Origin: Prevotella sp.
GTDB lineage: Bacteria; Bacteroidota; Bacteroidia; Bacteroidales; Bacteroidaceae
NCBI GenBank assembly: GCA_017561825.1
Contig: JAFZBK010000050.1
Location: 1 to 34,783, forward strand
Direction of reading: 5' to 3'
Length of the DNA: 34,783 nt
The notes below the pieces were generated by a model that made no database searches, had not been told where the DNA came from, and saw nothing but the letters and a program-made list of their open reading frames with translations. Positions within the stretch are counted from its first letter, which is position 1. Every line of letters starts with the position of its first letter. The position numbers and the translations under genes were made by a program. Below are positions 4,188 through 16,464 of the stretch, in pieces.

Positions 4188-6755
4188 TTAAATCTTTTCT
4201 ATCTGCGTAGCAGGAACCCATCCTTCTCTGCCATCAGCCAAGCGTATGCCCTTCCAGTCGCGCATCGTATCATCAGTGATATCCACCCGTGTTCCTTCAT
4301 GGATCACGCCTTGATCCGTACTGCTGGCCTCGGGTGTTTTCTTGATGGTGACGGAAGGAGCAGTGACGATGGCACCGTTACGTTTCATCAGCATCTGCTT
4401 CTGCTGGAACGCAAAGAGGTTGCTCAGCAGGAAGATGATGAGGAACAAGGCACCGCCGTAGAAGCCGATCTTACGCAGGATGAGCGGACTGGCGAAGAGA
4501 TACACCAAGGCGAGGATGAGCGTAAGGATGATGCTGGCAATGGCCAGTCGTGCCCAGTTGTCGATGGTCATCAGGTTCACCAACGAACGGTACCAGGTGA
4601 AGAAGAACATCTCACTCTCGGGGGTGATCTTATCGATGGTCTTTGAGCGTGCCATCTGCAGGTTGAAGCGAATATCCTCGTCTGCAGGATTCAGCAACAG
4701 CGCCCGCTCGTAGTTCAACACGGCACGCGTGATATTCTCGGTACGGTAATACGCATTACCGAGGTTATAGTATATCTCGGCGCTCTCGCCAGCCTTGAGA
4801 AGTTCCTCATAGTCCTTGATGGCCTGCTGATAGTTACCCTTACTATACTCCGCGTCTGCATCCTGCTTGGTGATAGCATGGATGGTCATTGGGAACATTA
4901 TTAGGGTGAGCAACAGCAACATGGCCATGTTACGTGCCTTAGTATTCCTTTTCTTCATGACATCTTCAATCTTTTCGATGGCCGTCATGGCCGACTCGTA
5001 CGTCTTGTTCATGTTTCCAGCGGCATCGCCAGGAGCATAACGCTCGAACTCACACTCGTCGAGTGCCTCGATGAACGTATTCACCGTCTGCTCATCCACA
5101 TGATGCTCAGCGAGCTTATCCGCGATATTGTCGTGTGACAGCTCAGAAACGGGGATATTCAGCTTATCGCCCATGTAACCCCACAGGGCACGCAGCACCT
5201 CATCGTAGAACTCACCCTGCTTACCAGCCGCCATGAGTTTCTGAGCCGTACGGAGTCGTTTGTTGGCCACCTTATTGGCTTTCTTGCCGCGCATCTTCAC
5301 GATATCGGCATTCTCGATGGCGCGACGACGGAAGATGATCATCAGGGCAATGAACGTTGCCAGCAACAAGCCCAGCAGAATCCAGTAGGCTGCACTGCCG
5401 AAGAAGAGAGATGCTGCATCTTTGCGGACAATCTTACCAGTTTTGATGGCATGGATATCCTGGTTCTTCTCGTCTGTGAAGTCCATGGAGTTACCGCCTG
5501 TGCCGTCGCCCTTGGCGACATCCAGCTCGAACGACTGTGTCTTGATGGTCTTGTAGGCATTAGCACTGACATCATAATAGGTGAACTCCACAGGAGGAAT
5601 GGTGTATTTACCCTGGTTGCGCGGCACGGCGAGGAAGTCGTATATCATGTTCCCCTCCACCCCATTGGCCGTGAGCTTGGTCTTATCCGTTACCTTCGGA
5701 TCATATTTGTCGAAGTCCTTGGGGAAGTTCACCACGGGCTGCTTGATCAGTTTCAGGTTACCCACACCGCCCACGACAACACGCACGGTAATGGGATCAT
5801 TGGCTTTCACCTCGGTCTTGTTCAGTTGGGCAGAGATATTGAACTTACCCACTCCGCCCGAGAAGTTATCAGGACGCTTGGGCAGGGGATCCACATGGAT
5901 CTTCAAACCCGGGGCCTTGATGCTCCGCTTCACCTCCACATAACCGCTACCACCATTGAGGAAGGCCTCGAAGGGATCGACGTTGCGGTTCTGCTGGATG
6001 ACCGTTCCGTTGAAGGTGATGCTCGGGATCTCCAGATCGCCTGTCATCTGCGGGTACATCACATACTGACTCCAGGTGACACAGCGGTAGTTACGACCGT
6101 TCACGTTCTCAACATGGAACGTCTTCTGCTGCGGCATCTTCACCTCCTGAGAGTGGAAGCCGGTCAGGTCGGGCATCTTTCCTTCCAGCTGCGTCAGGTC
6201 AACCAACGTATATACCTTATAGGTAAGCAGGATAGGCTCCTGCTCGTGAACACGCTGCTTGTTGGCACTCACCTTGATGAAGAGATCGCTACCGGAGATA
6301 GGCGATCCTGCCGAGCGCATCTGAGGACGGTCGTCGTTGTCATCATGCATCTTCGGTGCAGCACCCGTACTGGCTGCATGACCAGACACGGTTACCTTCA
6401 ACGGGTTAGATGTGATGGTCTTACCGTTGGCATGAACATGTGCGGCGGGAATGGTATAGGAACCGTTCTTGTTCGCACAGAGGATGAAGGTATAGGTGAT
6501 GGAAGATGAACTGCTGGTATGACCGTTCACCATCTGGAAGTTCGACTGCTGTGAGGTGTAGGGACCCGTGATGATCTCCAATGCCTCAGGGATCTCGCCG
6601 ATGCGGAAATCACTGGCATTGGAGGTGTTCACCGTGTAGGTAAGACGGAAGTTCTCACCGTTCTGCACCTGCGACGGCGCATTGGCGGTCAGCGTCTGTG
6701 CGTTGACCATCCATGTGATGAACAGTAGAGGTAAAACAAGTAAATATCTCTTCAT
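4188..6755 (-). CDS. batD: Fused BatD-BatE protein (oxygen-tolerance family, TPR, SH3)
   Basis: This 855-residue ORF combines two proteins that are usually separate. Residues 1-20 are a signal peptide ending VNAQ. Residues 21-415 are the BatD periplasmic beta-rich repeats (tandem Ig-like segments with GGVGNLKL). A TM helix lies at 457-476 and a cytoplasmic helical region at about 480-598. At Met600 a second signal-peptide-like stretch begins (MKKRNTKARN, then a hydrophobic run at 610-626). TPR repeats follow at about 630-700 (YYNLGNAYYRTEN), then two TM helices at 735-757 and 764-784, and an SH3-like domain at 790-855. The second half is a complete BatE. No stop codon or frame change separates the halves; the internal ATG is at 4956-4958. 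Bat proteins were linked to aerotolerance in Bacteroides fragilis; their biochemical role is unknown. The gene starts 12 nt after batC. Translation could also initiate at the internal ATG. Confidence 0.88.
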   Translation of the reverse strand: MKRYLLVLPLLFITWMVNAQTLTANAPSQVQNGENFRLTYTVNTSNASDFRIGEIPEALEIITGPYTSQQSNFQMVNGHTSSSSSITYTFILCANKNGSYTIPAAHVHANGKTITSNPLKVTVSGHAASTGAAPKMHDDNDDRPQMRSAGSPISGSDLFIKVSANKQRVHEQEPILLTYKVYTLVDLTQLEGKMPDLTGFHSQEVKMPQQKTFHVENVNGRNYRCVTWSQYVMYPQMTGDLEIPSITFNGTVIQQNRNVDPFEAFLNGGSGYVEVKRSIKAPGLKIHVDPLPKRPDNFSGGVGKFNISAQLNKTEVKANDPITVRVVVGGVGNLKLIKQPVVNFPKDFDKYDPKVTDKTKLTANGVEGNMIYDFLAVPRNQGKYTIPPVEFTYYDVSANAYKTIKTQSFELDVAKGDGTGGNSMDFTDEKNQDIHAIKTGKIVRKDAASLFFGSAAYWILLGLLLATFIALMIIFRRRAIENADIVKMRGKKANKVANKRLRTAQKLMAAGKQGEFYDEVLRALWGYMGDKLNIPVSELSHDNIADKLAEHHVDEQTVNTFIEALDECEFERYAPGDAAGNMNKTYESAMTAIEKIEDVMKKRNTKARNMAMLLLLTLIMFPMTIHAITKQDADAEYSKGNYQQAIKDYEELLKAGESAEIYYNLGNAYYRTENITRAVLNYERALLLNPADEDIRFNLQMARSKTIDKITPESEMFFFTWYRSLVNLMTIDNWARLAIASIILTLILALVYLFASPLILRKIGFYGGALFLIIFLLSNLFAFQQKQMLMKRNGAIVTAPSVTIKKTPEASSTDQGVIHEGTRVDITDDTMRDWKGIRLADGREGWVPATQIEKI

Positions 6756-6767
6756 AAGCGGATCTCC

Positions 6768-7433
6768 TTACCAATTCTTTTGTAACTGTTTCTTACGAGG
6801 CTGCTGCAGCGCTTTGTTCAGTCGTTGCTGCGTTGCCTTCTCGTTCTGCACGGCAGCATCGAGGAGTCGTTCGGCATTCTCCTTGCTCATCTGCTCCTTA
6901 GGCTGTTCCTCCTTCTGCTGGTCTTTCTTGTCCTTTTTCTGTTGTTGGCCCTTATCATCTTGCTGGTCCTCGTTCTTCTTATCCTGCTGGTTCTGGTTCT
7001 GCTGCGGATTGTTCTTGTTCATCTGCTTGCAGAGTGCCAGGTTGTAGCGCGTCTCATCATCGGTGGGGTTACAGCGCAGCGCCTGCTCGTAGGCCTTGAT
7101 GGCCTCGCCGTACATCTGATGACTCTGGCACATCACGCCCACGTTGTGCCACGACTTCGACTGGCGCAACTTGTTCTTCTCGAGCTTGGCGGCATTCTGA
7201 TACTGTATCACCGCGGCGGAGTCTTTCTGCTGCATCATCAAGGCACACCCGAGGTTATACTGCGCTTGCGGGTTCTCAGCATTCTTGGCAATAGCCTTCC
7301 GATAGAGCACCTCGGCCTGCGCATACTGCTTCTGGCGGTACAGGCGGTTGCCCTCGCGGATGAGCTGTCTGTCGTTCTGTGCATAGACAGCGGCACAGAC
7401 AGTCAACATGATGACCAATATATAGTGTCTCAT
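6768..7433 (-). CDS. batC: BatC, TPR-repeat protein
   Basis: A 221-residue secreted or periplasmic protein. It has a signal peptide at residues 1-19 (MRHYILVIMLTVCAAVYAQ), three or so TPR motifs at about 20-135 (REGNRLYRQKQYAQAEVLYRKAI, QAQYNLGCALMMQQ, EAIKAYEQALRCNP) and a long, highly charged Gln/Lys/Asp/Glu tail at about 140-195. TPRs mediate protein-protein contacts, and the tail looks disordered. The order batB-batC-batD and the TPR plus charged tail fit BatC of the Bacteroides aerotolerance cluster. Its ATG overlaps the batB stop by 4 nt, indicating translational coupling. Confidence 0.88.
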   Translation of the reverse strand: MRHYILVIMLTVCAAVYAQNDRQLIREGNRLYRQKQYAQAEVLYRKAIAKNAENPQAQYNLGCALMMQQKDSAAVIQYQNAAKLEKNKLRQSKSWHNVGVMCQSHQMYGEAIKAYEQALRCNPTDDETRYNLALCKQMNKNNPQQNQNQQDKKNEDQQDDKGQQQKKDKKDQQKEEQPKEQMSKENAERLLDAAVQNEKATQQRLNKALQQPRKKQLQKNW

Positions 7434-8452
7434 TTCTTTTTGAATATGCTTACGTTCTTCAACAACGGGTTCTTGCTTTCGAAGATGCAGACCTCGATGA
7501 TCAGCAGCAGCAAGGCCAGGATACCGAAAGCCTGGAACTGCTCGTCGTACTCACTGTAGATGGTGCTGGTGATCTGACCCGTCTGAAGCTTGATGAGTTC
7601 GTTGTTCAACTTGTTCTGTGCCACATTGGTGTTGTCAACATGGATATAGGCACCACCACCGGCCTCGGCCACCTGCTGGCACATCTGCTCGTTCAGTACC
7701 GACATCACCTCATCGCCTGTATTGTCCTTCATGTAGCCACCCTCTCCATCAGGAATCGGTGATCCCTTGGTGGAGCCGATACCTAATACGAATACACGCA
7801 TGCCCTTCTTCCTGGCCGCCTTCGCCATCTCGATGGCCCCGCCCTCATGGTCCTCACCGTCGGTAATCACAATGATGGCACGACCTATCTTCTCCTGCTG
7901 GGTGAACGCGTTCATGGCCAAGCGGATGGCCTCTGCGATATTGGTACCCTGCGTAGCTATCAGATGGGGATCGATGCTCTGGAGGAACATCTTCGCCGAG
8001 ACATAGTCGCTGGTGATAGGCAGCTGGATGAACGCATCACCGGCAAAGACAATCAGTCCTACCTTATCGTTCGTAAAGTTCTCCACCATGTTCTCGATGA
8101 GCATCTTACTCTTGTCGAGACGCGACGGCACCACATCCTCTGCCTTCATCGAGTTACTGATGTCAAGGGCGATGATCGTCTCGATGCCGTTGCGCTTCTC
8201 ATGACTGATCTTGGTGCCCATCTGCGGACGAGCCAGCATGATGATAAGCAAGGCCAGGGCAGCCATGAGAAGCCAGAACTTCACGCCCCGACGATATTTC
8301 GAGACATCCGGCATGAGCTGCTTCAGCAGGTTGATATCGCCGAAGCGTTTCAGCTTACTCTTCCGCTGGCGCATCAGAACGAGTCTGACGAGTGCCAATA
8401 TCGGTATCAGCACCAGCAGGTAGAGGTATATGGGGTTTTCAAATCTGAACAT
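7430..8452 (-). CDS. batB: BatB, membrane-anchored VWA-domain protein
   Basis: A 340-residue protein with two N-terminal TM helices (about 8-27 and 57-75), a von Willebrand factor A domain from about 90 to 290, and a C-terminal TM helix (about 310-326). The metal-ion-dependent adhesion site is intact: DISNS at 97-101, the threonine in ATQGTNI, and ITDGED near 196-201. The segment GSPIPDGEGGYMKD is characteristic of Bat VWA proteins. It probably works with BatA and the MoxR ATPase at the inner membrane. It overlaps batC by 4 nt and follows batA by 15 nt. Confidence 0.92.
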   Translation of the reverse strand: MFRFENPIYLYLLVLIPILALVRLVLMRQRKSKLKRFGDINLLKQLMPDVSKYRRGVKFWLLMAALALLIIMLARPQMGTKISHEKRNGIETIIALDISNSMKAEDVVPSRLDKSKMLIENMVENFTNDKVGLIVFAGDAFIQLPITSDYVSAKMFLQSIDPHLIATQGTNIAEAIRLAMNAFTQQEKIGRAIIVITDGEDHEGGAIEMAKAARKKGMRVFVLGIGSTKGSPIPDGEGGYMKDNTGDEVMSVLNEQMCQQVAEAGGGAYIHVDNTNVAQNKLNNELIKLQTGQITSTIYSEYDEQFQAFGILALLLLIIEVCIFESKNPLLKNVSIFKKK

Positions 8453-8467
8453 AACGAACTTTCCTTT

Positions 8468-9466
8468 TTAAGGTATGCGACGGAACCAGGTGATGCGGAG
8501 GATGATCTCGAGCAGCAGACAGAGGATTGCAGCAATGGCAAACGGCTGGTAGGCCTCGTAGTGCTTGGAGAACTTCTTCACTTCCATCTTGGTCTTCTCC
8601 AGCTTGTCAATATCCTGGTAGATCTTTTTCAGCTCTGCCGTATTGGTGGCTCGGTAGAAATGACCTTCGGCTGTGGCGGCAATATCACTCAGCGTCTTCG
8701 TATCCACATCCACGCGTACATTGACATACTGTATGGTGCCTCCTACCTGCATGGGGTATGGAGCCACCTTCTTGGAACCCACGGCAATGGTATAGACACG
8801 GATGCCTAAGCTCTTGGCAATCTGTGCAGCCGTGAGCGGAGAGATATCACCCATGTTGTTACTACCGTCGGTGAGCAGGATCACCACCTTGCTCTTGGTC
8901 TTACTGTCCTTCAATCTGCTCACTGCGTTGGCCAATCCCATACCAATAGCGGTACCGTCTTCAATCAGTCCTCTCTCCGCAATATCCGTACGCACATCCT
9001 TCAGGAGGGTGAGCAAGGAGGTATGATCGGTGGTCATGGGGCACTGCGTGAACGCCTCGCCTGCAAAGATGGTCAGACCGATATTGTCGTCCGGACGACC
9101 AGAGATGAACTCAGCCGCTACCGACTTAGCCGCTTCGATACGGTTGGGCTTCAGGTCCTGTGCCAGCATACTCGTTGACACGTCCATGGCCAGCATGATG
9201 TCAATACCTTCCGAGGTGCGCTTGCCCCAGCTGTCGTGCGTCTGCGGACGGGCCAACACGAGCACAATCAGCACGAAGGTGATCATACGCAGCAAGGCAG
9301 GCAGCCATACCAGTCGCTGACGCAGACTCTTCGGCGCATAACGATAAGCGAACGTGTCGCTCATCTGTATCGTCGGCTCGCTCTTCTTGCGGTATAGCAG
9401 ATACCAGATGATATACGGTATCAGCAACAGCAGCAGCAACAGGTATTCTTGGTTGACAAACTTCAT
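8468..9466 (-). CDS. batA: BatA, membrane-anchored VWA-domain protein
   Basis: A 332-residue protein built like BatB: TM helices at about 8-24 and 56-73, a VWA domain from about 85 to 290, and a C-terminal TM helix (FAIAAILCLLLEIIL). The MIDAS motif DVSTS is at 95-99 and LTDGSNN follows later in the domain. MoxR-type ATPases usually act with VWA partners, and both VWA proteins here sit in the moxR gene run. The gene begins 3 nt after the upstream BatD-like membrane protein gene. BatA and BatB are paralogues, assigned by order (A upstream of B). Confidence 0.92.
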   Translation of the reverse strand: MKFVNQEYLLLLLLLIPYIIWYLLYRKKSEPTIQMSDTFAYRYAPKSLRQRLVWLPALLRMITFVLIVLVLARPQTHDSWGKRTSEGIDIMLAMDVSTSMLAQDLKPNRIEAAKSVAAEFISGRPDDNIGLTIFAGEAFTQCPMTTDHTSLLTLLKDVRTDIAERGLIEDGTAIGMGLANAVSRLKDSKTKSKVVILLTDGSNNMGDISPLTAAQIAKSLGIRVYTIAVGSKKVAPYPMQVGGTIQYVNVRVDVDTKTLSDIAATAEGHFYRATNTAELKKIYQDIDKLEKTKMEVKKFSKHYEAYQPFAIAAILCLLLEIILRITWFRRIP

Positions 9467-9469
9467 ATT

Positions 9470-10591
9470 CTAAAACAGCAGATAGATCCTATATAGTACA
9501 TATATGAGCAGGATGACCATGACAACGAACAGTGCGGCGATGGCAACCTTGAGTACGATGCGCGACCGCATGGAACGTTTGTCTTTCTCCGTGAGCACAG
9601 GTTCGATGCGCTCGGTGGTGGGCTGGTTCTCCTGTTTGGTGGTATTGATGAACGCGATGGCATTCACCAGGTTGGCGTCGTTCTCGTTGATGAGCGACTT
9701 ATATTTCGCAAACTTCACGAGGTCGGCAGTGGTGAACAACTCGCGCAGCTCGTCAATCATCTTCTTGTCCTCTGCTTCCTGCAGACGGGCGATGATCTCG
9801 CTGGACGTCATCTCCATGGCACTGAAGCCGAAGCGTTCCTCGATATACTTACGCAGGGTGTCCGTAAGACGGGTGTAGTATTCTTTCTGATCCTCGGATG
9901 CCACCATCTTGTCGGCCTTGATCTTCTCGATCTCATCCATGGCTCGCTGATGTGGCAGCACCTTCTTGATGATGCGGACACGGGCAATGACGGGCTTGTT
10001 GCCTTTCAGACAAACACAGAGGTAGAAGGTAAGACATATCAGGAGTACCAACAGTACGCTGAGCCAGAACACATCACTCCACTCACTCCACAGGAAGGGG
10101 TTGTTCTGCACATCCTTCGGGGGATAGAAATTCTCGGGATGAAGGGTGTCAACAGGGATGGTTAACACCTTCAGTGCCAAATTCTTACTGCTGTATTCCT
10201 TACCATCTACTTTAATGGTTATGGGTGGCAGATAATACAGCTGCTCATCGAAGGAAGTAAGGGTATAGACCTTGCTGACACGGATCATGTCATTGTCCAA
10301 CTGTGCCGTATCAGCATCCGACATCTCCAGCACTTCCACACCCGGGGTGATATACTCAGAGGGTTTGAACTGAGGCAGGAGCAACGAATGACCCTTCTTA
10401 TAAGATACCTGTAAGGTGAGGTGTGCCTGTTCGCCGATAAGGATCTGGATGGAGTCGATAGATGATTCCACCTGTACCTGAGCAAACGCAGATACGGCGG
10501 TGATGACAGCTCCGCAGAACACGAGGAGCCATCTCAGCCATACGTTGTCACTATTTCTTGTTCCCAGTTTCATTGTTTCATCCATGTACAT
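9470..10591 (-). CDS. BatD-like/DUF4381-like membrane protein of the Bat cluster
   Basis: A 373-residue protein. It has a late signal peptide or anchor (hydrophobic at about 19-37, ending AFAQ) and a periplasmic beta-rich domain at about 40-165 that resembles the N-terminal repeat of BatD (DSIQILIGEQAHLTLQV). A TM helix follows at about 172-195. The charged cytoplasmic helical region at about 200-300 (TDTLRKYIEERFGFSAMEMTSSEII) resembles the corresponding part of BatD and DUF4381 proteins. A C-terminal TM helix lies at about 346-373. It sits between DUF58 and batA, the usual place of this Bacteroidota protein. The start is uncertain; Met3 and Met7 are alternatives. Its role is unknown beyond belonging to the Bat cluster. 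Confidence 0.8.
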   Translation of the reverse strand: MYMDETMKLGTRNSDNVWLRWLLVFCGAVITAVSAFAQVQVESSIDSIQILIGEQAHLTLQVSYKKGHSLLLPQFKPSEYITPGVEVLEMSDADTAQLDNDMIRVSKVYTLTSFDEQLYYLPPITIKVDGKEYSSKNLALKVLTIPVDTLHPENFYPPKDVQNNPFLWSEWSDVFWLSVLLVLLICLTFYLCVCLKGNKPVIARVRIIKKVLPHQRAMDEIEKIKADKMVASEDQKEYYTRLTDTLRKYIEERFGFSAMEMTSSEIIARLQEAEDKKMIDELRELFTTADLVKFAKYKSLINENDANLVNAIAFINTTKQENQPTTERIEPVLTEKDKRSMRSRIVLKVAIAALFVVMVILLIYVLYRIYLLF

Positions 10592-10607
10592 GGCAGATTC
10601 ATGATCC

Positions 10608-11477
10608 CTACCCTCGCATCTTGAACAGGAGGAGCAGCTGTTTCACGAAATCCTCGTTGGTGGCCATGCTCACATGATCTACATTACTCTTGTTAAACGT
10701 GTTGATTAGCGCTTGCTGACGACTCATCCAGTACTGGGTATGAGCGCGTCGTAGTTTCTTACTGCTGGTGTCGATGATCATCTCATGACCCGTCTCGGCG
10801 TCGCGCACCTTCATCAAGCCCACATCCGGCAGGGTTTTTGCCCGTTGGTCGTACACCTGAATAGCCACCACGTCGTGCTTGCGATTACAGATGGTGAGCG
10901 CCTGCTCGAAATCATCACGGGTGTAGAAGTCACTCAACAAGAAGGCGGTACAACGGCGTTTCATCACGCCTGTCAGGAACTCCACGCCCTGTTTCACATC
11001 TGTCTTACGACTCTCAGGGTGGAAGTCGAGCATCTCGCGGATGATATAGAGGATGTGCTTACGACCCTTCTTGGGTGGGATGTATTTCTCGATCTTGTCA
11101 GAGAAGAACACAACACCGATCTTGTCGTTGTTCTGAATGGCACTGAAGGCCAAGGTGGCGGCAATCTCCGTAACCATCTCCTTCTTCATCTGATGCTGGG
11201 TTCCGAACTCCAGCGAACCACTGACATCAATCAGCAGCATCACCGTCAGCTCGCGCTCTTCTTCGAACACCTTGACATACGGACGGTGGAAACGTGCCGT
11301 GACGTTCCAGTCGATGTCGCGCACATCATCACCATACTGATATTCACGTACTTCACTGAAGGCCATACCCCTACCCTTGAAGGCAGAATGGTACTCACCG
11401 GCAAAGATGTTGTTACTCAGTCGGCGGGTCTTGATCTCAATCTTACGAACCTTCTTCAGTATCTCAGTCGTTTCCAT
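10608..11477 (-). CDS. DUF58-domain protein
   Basis: A 289-residue cytoplasmic protein of the DUF58 family, which almost always follows a MoxR ATPase gene. Signatures are GEYHSAFKGRGMAFSEVREYQYGDDVRDIDWNVTAR near residues 27-62 and a VWA-like segment with LLIDVSGS. The D-x-S-x-S pattern is kept, so metal binding is possible. No TM segment or signal peptide is present. It is separated from moxR by 32 nt and from the next gene by 16 nt. The biochemical function is unknown; an adaptor or substrate role for MoxR is the usual inference. Confidence 0.9.
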   Translation of the reverse strand: METTEILKKVRKIEIKTRRLSNNIFAGEYHSAFKGRGMAFSEVREYQYGDDVRDIDWNVTARFHRPYVKVFEEERELTVMLLIDVSGSLEFGTQHQMKKEMVTEIAATLAFSAIQNNDKIGVVFFSDKIEKYIPPKKGRKHILYIIREMLDFHPESRKTDVKQGVEFLTGVMKRRCTAFLLSDFYTRDDFEQALTICNRKHDVVAIQVYDQRAKTLPDVGLMKVRDAETGHEMIIDTSSKKLRRAHTQYWMSRQQALINTFNKSNVDHVSMATNEDFVKQLLLLFKMRG

Positions 11478-11509
11478 CAGTCACAATCCTCTCTCGTTCT
11501 GTTCGATGA

Positions 11510-12505
11510 TCAGGGTACTTCAACCTTGTTGATGATCTTGCTGACGATTTCCTCACTCGTTACATTGGTGGCCTCGGCCTCGTATGACAAGCCGATACGG
11601 TGACGAAGAACATCGTGAGCCACAGCACGCACATCCTCAGGCACCACATAACCGCGGCGCTTGATGAATGCATAGGCACGGGCTGCCTTGGCCAGGTTGA
11701 TGGAGGCACGGGGTGAGCCACCAAAGGTGATGAGCTCTTTCAGCTCGCCCAACTGATAGCGTTCGGGATAACGGGTGGCGAAGACGATATCGGCAATATA
11801 CTGCTCGATCTTCTCGTCGATATATACCTGCTGCACCACCTGACGGGCATTCATGATCTCCTGGGCTGTGGTAACGGGTTTCACTTCCGGCAGACCGCCC
11901 TGGATGTTCTCACGGATGATCATCTTCTCTTCCTCAATGGTGGGATAGTCAATCACTACCTTGAGCATGAAACGGTCAACCTGTGCTTCAGGCAACGGGT
12001 AGGTACCTTCCTGCTCGATGGGGTTCTGGGTAGCCATCACTAAGAACGGGTTGGGCAACGGGAAGGTGTCACTGCCAATCGTCACCTGATGCTCCTGCAT
12101 AGCCTCCAACAAGGCACTCTGTACCTTTGCCGGGGCACGGTTGATTTCATCAGCCAATACGAAGTTGGCGAATACAGGCCCCTTCTTTACCTGGAACTTC
12201 TCATCTTTCTGCGAGTAGATCATCGTACCAATCACGTCAGCCGGCAAGAGGTCGGGGGTGAACTGTATACGACTGTAACCTGCATCTATCAGTTGTGCCA
12301 GTGTCTTGATGGCCAATGTCTTGGCAAGACCAGGAACACCTTCAAGCAGAATGTGTCCATCGCTGAGCAGACCGATGAGGAGGGAGTCAACGAGGTGTTT
12401 CTGACCCACGATGACCTGATCCATACCGTGGATCAGATTCGTTACAAATGCACTTTGTTGTTCTATCCGGATATTCAATTCACGGATATCAATTGCTTCT
12501 GCCAT
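11510..12505 (-). CDS. MoxR-family AAA+ ATPase
   Basis: A 331-residue AAA+ ATPase, first gene of the Bat gene run. Walker A is GVPGLAKT at 56-63, Walker B is FVLADE with D119-E120 followed by INRAPAKVQSALLEAMQE, sensor 1 is ATQNP near 160, and the C-terminal lid contains GGSPRASINLAKAARAYAF. This set is specific for the MoxR subfamily, whose members act as chaperone-like ATPases with VWA proteins. In Bacteroidota this gene heads the aerotolerance (bat) operon. A promoter-like element lies about 45 nt upstream of the start. Confidence 0.93.
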   Translation of the reverse strand: MAEAIDIRELNIRIEQQSAFVTNLIHGMDQVIVGQKHLVDSLLIGLLSDGHILLEGVPGLAKTLAIKTLAQLIDAGYSRIQFTPDLLPADVIGTMIYSQKDEKFQVKKGPVFANFVLADEINRAPAKVQSALLEAMQEHQVTIGSDTFPLPNPFLVMATQNPIEQEGTYPLPEAQVDRFMLKVVIDYPTIEEEKMIIRENIQGGLPEVKPVTTAQEIMNARQVVQQVYIDEKIEQYIADIVFATRYPERYQLGELKELITFGGSPRASINLAKAARAYAFIKRRGYVVPEDVRAVAHDVLRHRIGLSYEAEATNVTSEEIVSKIINKVEVP

Positions 12506-12599: not shown

Positions 12600-12639
12600 T
12601 ATTAAAAAAGTTTCTTAAAACTTACATTTAAGAAACTTT
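12600..12639 (-). terminator. Terminator after the HU-LysM gene
   Basis: A perfect 13-bp stem (12607-12619 with 12627-12639, loop ACTTACA) starts just after the stop codon of the HU-LysM gene. On the minus strand it is followed by TTTTTTAAT. The stem is AT-rich with only two G-C pairs, so efficiency may be modest. It separates this gene from the moxR promoter. Confidence 0.7.
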
Positions 12640-12647
12640 ATTATTAT

Positions 12648-13925
12648 CTAATTCTTTTTCTTTATTTGGAGCTTGGGGATTTTGAGTTTCATCCCTTCTG
12701 TAACCTCGCTGATACCGTTGTAGGCCTGGATGTAGCACTCCATACCATCGCCCAAGTAGAACTTGGAAATCTTCTTTATGGTCTGACCAGGTTTTACAGT
12801 GATGGTTTCCTGGGTTCCAACGATGTTATAGGCACCTTTGCTCACCATCGACTTGGCGTTGTTCACTGTCTGGGAGTTGTCACCCGCAGGCAGTGCAACG
12901 GCAGGGGCAGTTGCCTCAGTAGCTTTCGCTGCTGGTTTCTGCTGTTCCTGTGCAGCCTGCTTGGCAGCAATGGCGGCATCCAGCTTAGCTGTACTTTCGT
13001 TGGCTTTCTTCAACTTGGCCACGCGGATCGACTCATTACGTGCTTCGTGGGCACGGGTAATGGAATCCACTCTTGCCTTGATCTTCGCATCACGTGCTTT
13101 CTCCAGAGAATCCTCTGCATAGACGGAATCAATCATGGCACTGTCAACAAACTCTCCTTGAATCATTTCCGTCTTCTCCATAGGAATGAATTTCATCGGC
13201 GCGAACTTCTTACCGACATAGTAACCTCCCGCGAAACCAACAGCAGTACAGATGATTAATGCTGCCAGCCATTTCCATACGTTTGATTTTTCTTCTTCCA
13301 TAGTTGTATCTTCAGTTGTTTCGTTAATATCTGTATCTAATAATCCGTTTATTACTCCTTCTGTTGGTTGTTCTTCATCAACAGGCTCTTCCGCAATGGG
13401 CTCCTCATTGATGGGCTCTTCAATTGTTGGTTCTTCGATGATGGGTTCCTCTGCTACCGGTTCTTCGATAACAGGCTCTTCAACGATGGGCTCCCCGATA
13501 ACAGGTTCCTCAACGATAGGCTCCTCGATAACGGGTTCCTCAACGATAGGCTCATCCGCTATAACCTCTTCAATAGCTGGTTCTTCGGGGATATCGCTAA
13601 AGTCAACTCCATCATTGAGCACCACGGTCTCGAACTGTGAGAACGGACGGTTCACCAGCTCTTTCATGGCGGCATCCGGCGTGAAGGTAATCTTGTTCCT
13701 ACCCTCAATCACGAAGCGGTCGCCCGTCTGCACATTCACGCTCTCACGGTCCTTGGTGTCAATGATCTTGAAGGTACCCAAACCACTGATCTTCACGAGC
13801 TTCTCGGTCTGAAGTGCGTCATTGACAATATCCACCAGTTCATTGACGAACTGGGTGTTCTTCCTTCGCGACAAACCATTCTTCTGGGCGAGAAGGTTTA
13901 CCAAGTCTTGTTTTGTCTTAACCAT
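12648..13925 (-). CDS. HU-like DNA-binding domain fused to TM helix and LysM
   Basis: A 425-residue protein of unusual layout. Residues 1-95 form an HU/IHF-type domain (MVKTKQDLVNLLAQ, ISGLGTFKI, then an arm region and INKITFTP-like GRNKITFTPDAAM). Residues 112-186 are a Glu/Pro-rich repeat with about 13 EEP[IV]-type units. A single TM helix spans about 217-238 (WLAALIICTAVGFAGGYYVG). A charged, probably coiled segment follows at about 268-330, then an Ala/Pro linker, and a LysM domain closes the protein at about 372-418 (ITVKPGQTIKKISKFYLG). Known domain roles suggest DNA binding on one side of the inner membrane and peptidoglycan binding on the other. Flanking charges do not fix the topology, since lysines follow the TM helix. 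It overlaps the small HU gene by 8 nt, so the two HU-type proteins are coexpressed and might heterodimerise (inference). Confidence 0.88.
   Translation of the reverse strand: MVKTKQDLVNLLAQKNGLSRRKNTQFVNELVDIVNDALQTEKLVKISGLGTFKIIDTKDRESVNVQTGDRFVIEGRNKITFTPDAAMKELVNRPFSQFETVVLNDGVDFSDIPEEPAIEEVIADEPIVEEPVIEEPIVEEPVIGEPIVEEPVIEEPVAEEPIIEEPTIEEPINEEPIAEEPVDEEQPTEGVINGLLDTDINETTEDTTMEEEKSNVWKWLAALIICTAVGFAGGYYVGKKFAPMKFIPMEKTEMIQGEFVDSAMIDSVYAEDSLEKARDAKIKARVDSITRAHEARNESIRVAKLKKANESTAKLDAAIAAKQAAQEQQKPAAKATEATAPAVALPAGDNSQTVNNAKSMVSKGAYNIVGTQETITVKPGQTIKKISKFYLGDGMECYIQAYNGISEVTEGMKLKIPKLQIKKKN
13384..13590 (-). repeat. Coding repeat for the Glu/Pro-rich linker
   Basis: Degenerate 15-bp units (GAGGAGCCT-type codons) encode repeated EEP[IV][IVA] pentapeptides between the HU domain and the TM helix. 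Unit number could change by slippage without a frameshift. The linker is strongly acidic, unlike the DNA-binding domain beside it. Confidence 0.7.
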
Positions 13926-14211
13926 TCTCCTCCCCTCCGTTCTTTAGTTTCTCCTTGATAGAAGGAATAAGTTTAAAGCCAAGTACCAGTTTGGGCGGTA
14001 CGAGCATCCGCTTGTGTGTTGACGGATTCACGATAATGCGTTCCATCCGCTTCTTCACCTCGAAGGTACCAAACCCAGGAATCGTGAACGGCTCACCTGA
14101 CTGAAACTCCTCGTTCATGACATCAATCAGGGATTTCACCATTCGTTGTGCTTCACCGTTGGTGCATTCCAAGCGTTGTGACAGTTCTTTGATGAAATTC
14201 TTGTTCGTCAT
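13918..14211 (-). CDS. HU/IHF-family DNA-binding protein
   Basis: A 97-residue protein of normal HU size. Visible features are the helical N-terminus (NKNFIKELSQRLECTNGEAQRMVKSLIDV), the turn FTIPGFGTFEVKKR, and the arm and basic C-terminus (NPSTHKRMLVPPKLVLGFKLIPSIKEKLKN). HU proteins bend and compact DNA as dimers. The arm lacks the usual R-x-x-R-NP-QTG sequence and instead has IVNPSTHKRMLVPP, so it is a divergent member. It overlaps rimO upstream by 4 nt and the HU-TM-LysM gene downstream by 8 nt, placing all three in one transcription unit. Confidence 0.9.
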   Translation of the reverse strand: MTNKNFIKELSQRLECTNGEAQRMVKSLIDVMNEEFQSGEPFTIPGFGTFEVKKRMERIIVNPSTHKRMLVPPKLVLGFKLIPSIKEKLKNGGEENG

Positions 14212-15518
14212 CTCCTATTGTTTTTGACCGATGCATAGAGATCAAACTCTTCTGCACCAGTGATCGTTGTATCGTAAAACGTTCCTACACGCAGGGTGCG
14301 TTCGGCAGCAGGAATCAACACCTCGGGATCCACTTCTGGTGACGAGAACTCCGTACGACCGATGTAGTAGTCGCCTTCCTTCCTGTCGATGATCACGCGC
14401 ATGGTGGTTCCTACCTTGGCTGCCTGAATCTCAGCACTGATCTCCTGCTGAAGGGCCATCAGTTGGTCAAGACGTTCCTGCTTCACTTCTTCGGGCACAT
14501 CATCCGTATAGTGCTCAGCGCTGTAGGTTCCTTCTTCTTCAGAATAGGCAAAGGCACCCATACACTCGAAGCGCGACTCGCGGACGAAATCCATCAGCTC
14601 TTCAAAATCCTCTTCTGTCTCACCGGGGAAGCCCACCATCAGCGTGGTTCTCAGATGAATACCCGGTACACGTTTGCGAATCTGCTGAATCAGACGAAGG
14701 GTTTCTTCCTTGCTTGTCTGACGTCTCATCGCGGTCAGCATGTGGTCGGAGATATGTTGCAAGGCGATGTCGAGATACTTGCAAACATTGTCTTTCTCCC
14801 TGATCACATCGAGCAGTTCCATGGGGAAACGTGCGGGATAGGCATAATGAAGACGGATCCATTGCACACCGGGAATATCCGCCATGGCGGAAATCAGTTC
14901 AGCGATGTGCTGCTTACCATCGAGGTCGAGTCCGTAGAAGGTGAGCTCCTGGGCAATCACCTGGAACTCCTTCACACCCTGAGCCACCAGATCGCGCACT
15001 TCCTGGAGGATCTCCTCCTGGGGTCTGCTCACATGTTTACCCGTAATAATAGGTATCGCGCAATACGCGCAATGACGGTCACAACCCTCACTGATCTTCA
15101 GATAGGCATAATGACGAGGTGTAGTGAGATGACGCTGACAGGCATTCTCTGCCACCTTCTCATGACAGAGGTCGTTGATCAGTTCTCTATAATTGAACTT
15201 CCCGTAGATCTTATCCACTTCGGGCAGTTCCTCCTCCAGCTCCTTGGGATAGCGTTGTGACAGGCAACCCATCACGAATAGTTTCTTCAGTTTACCTTCC
15301 TTTTTCCGTTCAATGAATTCCAGAATGGTGTTGATGCTCTCTTCCTTGGCGTCGCCGATGAATCCGCAGGTGTTGACAACGGCAATCTCTCCTTGCGGAT
15401 TCTTGCTGTCGTGCACGCAACGGTAACCGTTCTCCTCGTACAGTTTCATCAGGATCTCGCTATCCACCAGGTTCTTCGAGCATCCCATCGTGATGATATC
15501 CACCTGATTCTTAATCAT
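14208..15518 (-). CDS. rimO: Ribosomal protein uS12 methylthiotransferase RimO
   Basis: A radical SAM enzyme that adds a methylthio group to the conserved Asp of ribosomal protein uS12. The 436-residue protein has the N-terminal cluster-binding cysteines C13, C51 and C85 and the radical SAM motif C146-x3-C150-x2-C153 (GCDRHCAYC), followed by AIPIITGKHVSRP. The core runs to about 365, and a C-terminal TRAM domain closes the protein (YYIGRTEFSSPEVDPEVLIP). The text MGCSKNLVDSE and the length separate RimO from MiaB. It overlaps ftsY by 8 nt and the small HU gene by 4 nt, so it is translationally coupled. Confidence 0.95.
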   Translation of the reverse strand: MIKNQVDIITMGCSKNLVDSEILMKLYEENGYRCVHDSKNPQGEIAVVNTCGFIGDAKEESINTILEFIERKKEGKLKKLFVMGCLSQRYPKELEEELPEVDKIYGKFNYRELINDLCHEKVAENACQRHLTTPRHYAYLKISEGCDRHCAYCAIPIITGKHVSRPQEEILQEVRDLVAQGVKEFQVIAQELTFYGLDLDGKQHIAELISAMADIPGVQWIRLHYAYPARFPMELLDVIREKDNVCKYLDIALQHISDHMLTAMRRQTSKEETLRLIQQIRKRVPGIHLRTTLMVGFPGETEEDFEELMDFVRESRFECMGAFAYSEEEGTYSAEHYTDDVPEEVKQERLDQLMALQQEISAEIQAAKVGTTMRVIIDRKEGDYYIGRTEFSSPEVDPEVLIPAAERTLRVGTFYDTTITGAEEFDLYASVKNNRR

Positions 15519-16464
15519 TGAACAAGGAATTCACAAACTGTTTCTTGTTAAACAACTGTAGATCCTCCATACCCTCACCGAGTCCTATGTACTTGACAGG
15601 AACTTTCAACTGATCAGAGATACCAATCACCACGCCACCTTTGGCCGTTCCGTCGAGTTTGGTAATCGCCAGTGAGGTTATCTGGGTAACGGCTGAGAAC
15701 TGCTTGGCTTGCTCAAAGGCGTTCTGTCCGGTACTGCCATCAAGAACGAGCATCACCTCATCAGGTGCCTCGGGCAGCACTTTCTTCATCACATCCTTGA
15801 TCTTCTTCAGCTCGTTCATCAAGCCGACCTTGTTATGTAATCGTCCTGCTGTATCAATCAATACGACATCTGCATCGTTGGCCTTTGCCGAACTGAGCGT
15901 ATCGAAGGCCACACTGGCGGGATCAGCACCCATCTGCTGCTTGACAACGGGTACTCCCACACGCTCACCCCATATACAAAGCTGTTCAACGGCAGCGGCA
16001 CGGAAGGTGTCAGCGGCACCGAGGTACACTTTCTTTCCAGCCTTCTTGAACTGATAAGCCAACTTACCGATGGTAGTGGTCTTACCCACTCCATTCACAC
16101 CCACGATGAGGATGACATAGGGTTTATGGTCGGATGGCAGATCCCAGTTATCGTTGTCATCAGAGTGGTTCTCTGACAACAGGGCTGCAATCTCATCACG
16201 CAGAATACCGTTGAGTTCGGATGTGGAGACATACTTATCGCGTGACACACGTTCTTCGATACGACGGATGATTTTCAAGGTCGTATCTACACCCACATCA
16301 CTGGTAATCAGGATTTCCTCGAGGTCATCAAGAACATCATCATCCACCTTCGATTTACCTGCCACAGCACGGGTAAGCTTGGAGAATACGCTCTGCTTGG
16401 TTTTTTCAAGTCCTTTGTCTAGCGTTTCCTTCTTCTCTTTATTGAATAATCCAAATAATCCCAT
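15511..16464 (-). CDS. ftsY: Signal recognition particle receptor FtsY
   Basis: The SRP receptor GTPase that docks ribosome-SRP complexes at the inner membrane for cotranslational insertion. The 317-residue protein has a short N-terminal helix region (MGLFGLFNKEKKE) in place of the long acidic A domain of E. coli, then the N domain to about 110. The G domain has G1 GVNGVGKT at 122-129, DTFRAAA at 152-158, DTAGR at 204-208 and TKLDGTAKGG at 268-277, with closing GLGEGMEDL. It starts from its own promoter just beyond the terminator of the rpmB-rpmG-DUF4295 unit and leads the ftsY-rimO-HU-HU/LysM unit. Confidence 0.96.
   Translation of the reverse strand: MGLFGLFNKEKKETLDKGLEKTKQSVFSKLTRAVAGKSKVDDDVLDDLEEILITSDVGVDTTLKIIRRIEERVSRDKYVSTSELNGILRDEIAALLSENHSDDNDNWDLPSDHKPYVILIVGVNGVGKTTTIGKLAYQFKKAGKKVYLGAADTFRAAAVEQLCIWGERVGVPVVKQQMGADPASVAFDTLSSAKANDADVVLIDTAGRLHNKVGLMNELKKIKDVMKKVLPEAPDEVMLVLDGSTGQNAFEQAKQFSAVTQITSLAITKLDGTAKGGVVIGISDQLKVPVKYIGLGEGMEDLQLFNKKQFVNSLFND

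Follow-up and report, generated by a model that had tools for sequence, protein, structure and literature searches.

In a 34,783-nucleotide stretch of Prevotella sp. DNA (contig JAFZBK010000050.1; hereafter the window), two overlapping minus-strand genes encode a small HU protein (HU1) and a 425-residue protein (HU2), in which an HU domain is followed by an acidic linker, a transmembrane (TM) helix, a long charged helix, and a LysM-like C-terminal domain. The best explanation of this arrangement, adopted here with moderate confidence, is a heterodimer in which HU1 would grip DNA and HU2 would anchor the pair through the inner membrane to peptidoglycan. What was observed is a set of domains in one chain, a close and widely conserved gene pair, natural fusions of its two members, and opposite fates of their DNA-binding arms.

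In the proposed scheme, HU1 and HU2 would form an obligate asymmetric heterodimer of the HU/IHF type. The basic, proline-tipped arm of HU1 would grip and bend DNA, while the second half of the HU body would come from HU2. The acidic disordered spacer and the inner-membrane helix of HU2, oriented with the N-terminus inside and the C-terminus outside, would lead to a periplasmic coil and a LysM domain that would hold peptidoglycan. The pair would thus tie a bit of the nucleoid to the cell wall, and could so help to place or segregate the chromosome, or to hold it close to the envelope. A broader claim is advanced tentatively: Bacteroidales, along with one distant family of their phylum, might use a specialised asymmetric heterodimer of HU proteins, one subunit gripping DNA and the other spanning the inner membrane to hold the wall, as a direct nucleoid-wall tether that works beside a second tether of the HU-SPOR kind in positioning or segregating the chromosome.

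To our knowledge, little has been worked out about how Bacteroidota position their chromosome with respect to the envelope. Many Prevotella/Bacteroides gut bacteria carry the HU1-HU2 gene pair, and the course of HU2 through the inner membrane to a wall-binding domain suggests that chromosome and wall may be physically connected in these organisms. If the scheme is true, major gut bacteria would possess a direct and genetically simple nucleoid-wall link, as well as an HU dimer whose DNA grip and anchoring are split between two subunits, and the general question of whether nucleoids attach to the wall would become a two-gene test.

Architecture and gene context of HU2

The relevant features of the window are as follows.

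12648..13925, minus strand: HU2 (HU-LysM) gene, 425 aa (open reading frame, Pfam, AlphaFold2)
13641..13925, minus strand: HU domain of HU2, residues 1-95 (PF00216, arm alignment)
within 13641..13925, minus strand: HU2 arm, residues 60-73, RESVNVQTGDRFVI, without a proline wedge (arm alignment)
13356..13592, minus strand: acidic EEP-repeat linker, residues ~112-190 (sequence and low pLDDT)
13203..13280, minus strand: TM helix, residues 216-241 (hydropathy and AlphaFold2)
12948..13142, minus strand: long charged helix, residues 262-326, presumably periplasmic (AlphaFold2)
12666..12830, minus strand: LysM-like C-terminal domain, residues 366-420 (Pfam, AlphaFold2, Foldseek)
13918..14211, minus strand: HU1, small HU of 97 aa with a proline-tipped basic arm, overlapping HU2 by 8 nt (PF00216, 80.2 bits against a cut-off of 22.4)
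14208..15518, minus strand: rimO-like gene upstream of HU1, overlapping it by 4 nt (sequence)
15511..16464, minus strand: ftsY-like gene, first of the putative unit (sequence)
12604..12639, minus strand: terminator-like hairpin with a T run, after HU2 (-14.6 kcal/mol, z -4.19)

An earlier note on this DNA had described an HU domain, a linker, a TM helix, a coil, and a LysM domain in one 425-residue open reading frame. This layout was confirmed with its coordinates, the strand being minus (the plus-strand reading of 12648-13925 is interrupted by stops), and Pfam and AlphaFold2 agree on it, with the LysM match below the Pfam cut-off. Residues 4-92 match PF00216 at 74.4 bits (cut-off 22.4), and the HU part is closest to IHF and HU chains among solved structures (Foldseek, best E 2e-7). 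The AlphaFold2 model, built with 28 sequences, contains an HU fold, a helix at residues 216-241 (hydropathy 1.72 at residues 220-238), a second helix at residues 262-326, and a beta-alpha-alpha-beta end. Invariant positions fall within the HU and LysM parts, with almost none between them. Membership in the CCDC81 type of HU proteins was ruled out, as PF18175 scores 23.3 bits, below its cut-off of 35, and the Pfam scan of HU2 gave no match to a SPOR domain or to the C-terminal FimV/TPR domain.

LysM (PF01476) is matched at residues 375-417 with 17.1-19.9 bits, under the Pfam cut-off of 20.9. In a scan of 110 C-termini, 47, the window protein's among them, matched the Pfam profile at E <= 0.01, and 63 did not. 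The LysM-like end has a pLDDT of 92-96; when it was modelled alone, its nearest solved structures were LysM/Kbp and phage baseplate proteins, all of them weak (best E 0.07, none at E <= 0.001). LysM-like ends were otherwise judged by eye in the fetched loci. One split member (L103) is omitted from the 110-member counts of LysM, TM, and linker and included in the 111-member counts of neighbours and arms.

With regard to topology, a TM-like stretch is present in 110/110 fetched proteins (19-residue hydropathy >= 1.5), and a hydrophobic N-terminal stretch was found in 2/110; hydropathy gives no hint of a signal peptide in the others. Lysine and arginine around the TM helix are richer on the N-terminal side in 63/110, on the C-terminal side in 27/110, and equal in 20/110. 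This bias across relatives favours N-in/C-out as the likely topology of HU2; the window protein itself, with two positive residues before the helix and four after it, leans against N-in. The linker, most of whose length has a pLDDT below 50 in the disordered part of the model, contains more than twice as many acidic (D+E) as basic (K+R) residues in 91/110 proteins and varies from 36 to 520 residues. Such a spread of lengths fits the electrostatic spacer that the earlier note had proposed, whereas its alternative of a DNA mimic is simply possible.

The 8-nt overlap of HU2 with a normal-size HU gene was found as the same note had described it. It had also placed the pair in a unit with ftsY and rimO (names that we presume for the two upstream genes), and a transcription unit of ftsY, rimO, HU1, and HU2 is plausible: the genes share one direction, and terminator-like hairpins lie after HU2 and upstream of ftsY (16649-16622), with eight such sites in the scan against 4.4 expected. 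A promoter scan of the region stayed at the level of shuffled sequence and was uninformative. Both ftsY and rimO are nearby in 29/29 loci from other genera of the window's family, in 4/20 loci from the rest of Bacteroidales (a further one has only rimO), and in 0/10 loci of the distant family (f135). The idea that ftsY and rimO form part of the mechanism is weakened, since this proximity is mostly absent outside the window's family. On the other side of the HU pair, the window carries minus-strand genes at 4188-12505 that are presumably moxR-like, DUF58-like, VWA-domain, and BatD-like; a moxR-like gene is likewise downstream in 6/15 listed loci of other families.

HU1 as probable partner of HU2 and distribution of the pair

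In a profile search, an HU1-type gene adjoins 110 of the 111 HU2 genes. Among these 110 pairs, 83 overlap or abut, 24 are separated by 1-30 nt, and three are farther apart. Because the HU1 profile had been built from such neighbours, the adjacency test was repeated with the window's HU1 as the sole query, and 110/111 was again obtained. The 111th HU2 (L091, 754 aa) carries an HU1-type domain inside its own chain, at residues 2-83. Single chains of the form HU1-HU2-TM-LysM occur in seven genomes of five genera (G070, G066, G086, G194, G200, G213, and G019), the last of which belongs to the window's own genus; the HU2 half is weak in G086 (E 0.0016 and 0.00017). Since the fusion is absent from most genomes of the same genera (e.g., 12/14 in g37), several independent fusions are likely. 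The adjacency and the natural fusions argue strongly, if indirectly, for HU1 and HU2 acting as one dimer. The interpretation in the earlier note is thus supported in part: the small HU had been suggested there as a partner in a wall tether, and that partnership is now much strengthened; a direct DNA grip by the anchored HU domain has become doubtful. The roles that the note had put forward, in chromosome positioning, segregation, or envelope sensing, are candidates.

In the window's family, the HU2 domain is found in a frame of at least 178 aa in at least 133 of 151 genomes, a count that refers to the HU2 domain in a long frame and includes one split gene (G201) and one LysM-less gene (G139); TM and LysM were inspected in the fetched loci. 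The 30 named relatives comprise 29 labelled Prevotella or Prevotellaceae and one labelled Clostridiales, whose contig (L045) carries a Prevotella-type HU2 gene and is probably mislabelled or from a mixed bin. HU2 is also present in other Bacteroidales families: in a sample of the order, 24/148 genomes gave a match at E <= 1e-10 in a frame of more than 300 aa, three of them in the window's family. In a sample of the phylum (198 genomes), at least 22 genomes beyond the window's own gave a match, and among the matches listed all belong to f135, outside the class. The search across Bacteroidota that had been proposed earlier thus finds the same layout recurring in the family, the order, and f135, and this recurrence in many genomes excludes a chance fusion or an assembly artefact.

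The earlier note had also considered that homologues might normally carry the domains as two genes, which is rejected as a rule. The sole split gene seen is L103 (3959-5022), where HU2 falls into two frames at an A run owing to assembly error, slippage, or switching. Another exception is a Prevotella metagenome-assembled genome with the HU2 domain alone (L058:1581-1913, 110 aa), followed by a moxR-like gene.

Among the family genomes beyond the 133 listed, 16 of 18 were checked at the rimO site. HU1 and an arm-less HU2 are separate genes in one of them (G151), and both HU domains are in a single chain in five. In four (G098, G080, G113, and G079; three belong to g45 and one to g44), the rimO-moxR site holds a TM-LysM protein devoid of an HU domain, and these loci (L136, L139, L147, and L145) give the impression that the HU half has been discarded. 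No HU2-type or TM-LysM gene was seen at the rimO site of G065, G085, G102, G117, G128, and G064, and no rimO was found in G073 and G167 at the set E-value. In addition, L149 (2224-2829) encodes an HU2 of 201 aa with a TM helix and no LysM, with HU1 upstream. The HU-less form in four genomes, together with the six in which nothing was seen, indicates that the tether is not essential to the window's family, and a series of decay in which the arm, the HU domain, LysM, or all of them are lost suggests that some lineages can do without its role.

A proposed division of labour between the two arms

In HU and IHF, a proline at the arm tip is wedged into DNA, and the basic arms hold the DNA. In the Bacteroidales HU2 proteins (n = 101), the profile count gives valine or isoleucine at the tip in 92, proline in two, and another or a missing residue in seven. 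The f135 proteins have proline in 10/10, within NPQT or NPRT, which suggests that the proline loss in Bacteroidales HU2 is derived. The median arm charge of HU2 is -1 over all 111 members. HU1, by comparison, has proline at the tip in 108/110 (52/52 in the first set, i.e., L001-L060 without five exact duplicates and without L045, L051, and L058, which are short or cut off by a contig end) and a median arm charge of +5 (n = 110). A basic RNPxTG proline-wedge arm is thus found in HU1 and not in Bacteroidales HU2, which keeps the first canonical arm arginine in 52/52 of the first set. Proline loss alone is no mark of HU2, as one of the two generic HU proteins of the window's genome (L167, G000:C17, 93 aa) also has no tip proline, the other having NPATK.

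With its wedge proline and basic arm lost in Bacteroidales, HU2 itself is a doubtful candidate for gripping DNA, and HU1 would have to supply the grip. The loss of DNA-contact residues, which the earlier note had named as evidence against its proposal, is therefore found in part: both features are gone from HU2 in Bacteroidales, and in some genera its arm is deleted or rebuilt. The anchored HU2 is probably not the DNA-gripping half, and the simplest reading of the arms would assign the DNA grip to HU1 and the anchoring to HU2.

The same loss can be read in another way, namely that the HU1-HU2 dimer has become a protein-protein module that attaches a cytoplasmic protein to the membrane and wall, without DNA contact, much as the helix-turn-helix domain of RodZ binds MreB. 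Beyond the proline and basic arm lost from Bacteroidales HU2, this reading draws on five loci (L120, L121, L123, L124, and L125) where the arm of HU2 has been removed or remodelled. HU1 carries a net negative charge in three of them (L121, -5; L123, -6; L125, -8), so that DNA binding may be lost there. The four genomes with an HU-less TM-LysM protein at the same site point in the same direction. However, HU1 retains its proline in all but two of 110 cases and its positively charged arm, the first arm arginine of HU2 is invariant in the first set, and f135 HU2 proteins still have NPQT or NPRT. Docking without DNA contact is hence considered rather unlikely.

A structural role in division or envelope assembly, in which LysM-TM would be the main part of a wall-membrane protein and the HU pair would only sense the nucleoid or localise the protein, appears quite improbable. 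It would agree with the four HU-less TM-LysM genes at the rimO-moxR site and with the moxR-like gene downstream in the six loci of other families, but the invariant positions lie in HU as well as LysM with hardly any between, most genomes keep HU1-HU2, and an HU-TM form without LysM exists (L149).

A second putative HU-envelope protein and other known systems

For the proposed heterodimeric tether of HU1 and HU2, a possible companion is encoded in the window's own genome. This is an HU-CCDC81-TM-SPOR protein of 354 residues (L132:1706-2770, G000:C58), in which PF18174, PF18175, and SPOR are over their cut-offs and the TM helix was judged by eye. For such Bacteroidetes proteins, a role in chromosome partition was reportedly predicted by Burroughs et al. 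2017. Like HU2, they combine HU-type domains, a TM helix, and a C-terminal peptidoglycan-binding domain; they differ in having the CCDC81 type of HU and SPOR, whereas HU2 has a classical PF00216 HU domain and a LysM-like end. No HU1-like open reading frame was detected by BLAST in the 5-kb stretch of the HU-CCDC81-SPOR gene.

Of the 14 g37 genomes (all those of this genus among the family matches listed), nine have the HU-CCDC81-SPOR gene on the same strand as the HU-LysM gene and downstream of it, at a distance of 54-352 nt in eight and ~1.3 kb in one; in the other five, it was not found in the fetched stretch. In the window's genus, two genomes, picked for matches lying close on one contig, have the two genes as neighbours in convergent orientation. 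These neighbourhoods support a process shared by the two proteins. That HU1-HU2 is a redundant DNA-envelope linker, important only jointly with HU-CCDC81-TM-SPOR, accords with the presence of both in one genome, with PF18175 above cut-off in 51/60 relatives, and with the g37 neighbourhoods, but is highly improbable given that the HU class and the wall domain differ and different sites may be served.

HU2-type proteins have very likely been noted before as the HU_bacL clade, whose description they match: Bacteroidetes HU proteins extended at the C-terminus by a long (mean 238 aa), charged, Glu-rich stretch (PMC5683647). In the main text of that paper, the words membrane, transmembrane, LysM, and peptidoglycan are absent, and the accessible passages name no partner gene. 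An HU protein and a LysM protein are named separately in the accessible text of PMC10434189, and either might correspond to HU2. A literature search, with most subscription papers outside its reach, found no report of an HU-TM-LysM protein.

It was reported that LysM of FimV, a LysM-TM-acidic protein, binds sacculi (PMC12918733) and that HubP is needed, together with ParA1, for polar anchoring of the chromosome 1 origin of V. cholerae (PMC9140986). As far as these sources describe them, the polar landmark proteins HubP/FimV have a periplasmic LysM, a single TM helix, and a long acidic cytoplasmic part of variable length; HU2 has such parts, with their placement on the two sides of the membrane predicted. 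HubP/FimV differ in that the order along the chain is reversed, the DNA link is indirect, and the phylum is another, and the likeness is one of build; HU2 has no FimV domain and is thus not a member of HubP/FimV. By this analogy, HU2 may work like HubP/FimV turned round.

IHF, whose chains are the best solved relatives of HU2, offers a parallel for the proposed dimer. IHF alpha/beta has two proline-tipped arms and, in a further difference from HU1-HU2, no membrane or wall part, while the natural HU1-HU2 fusions resemble single-chain IHF (2iie).
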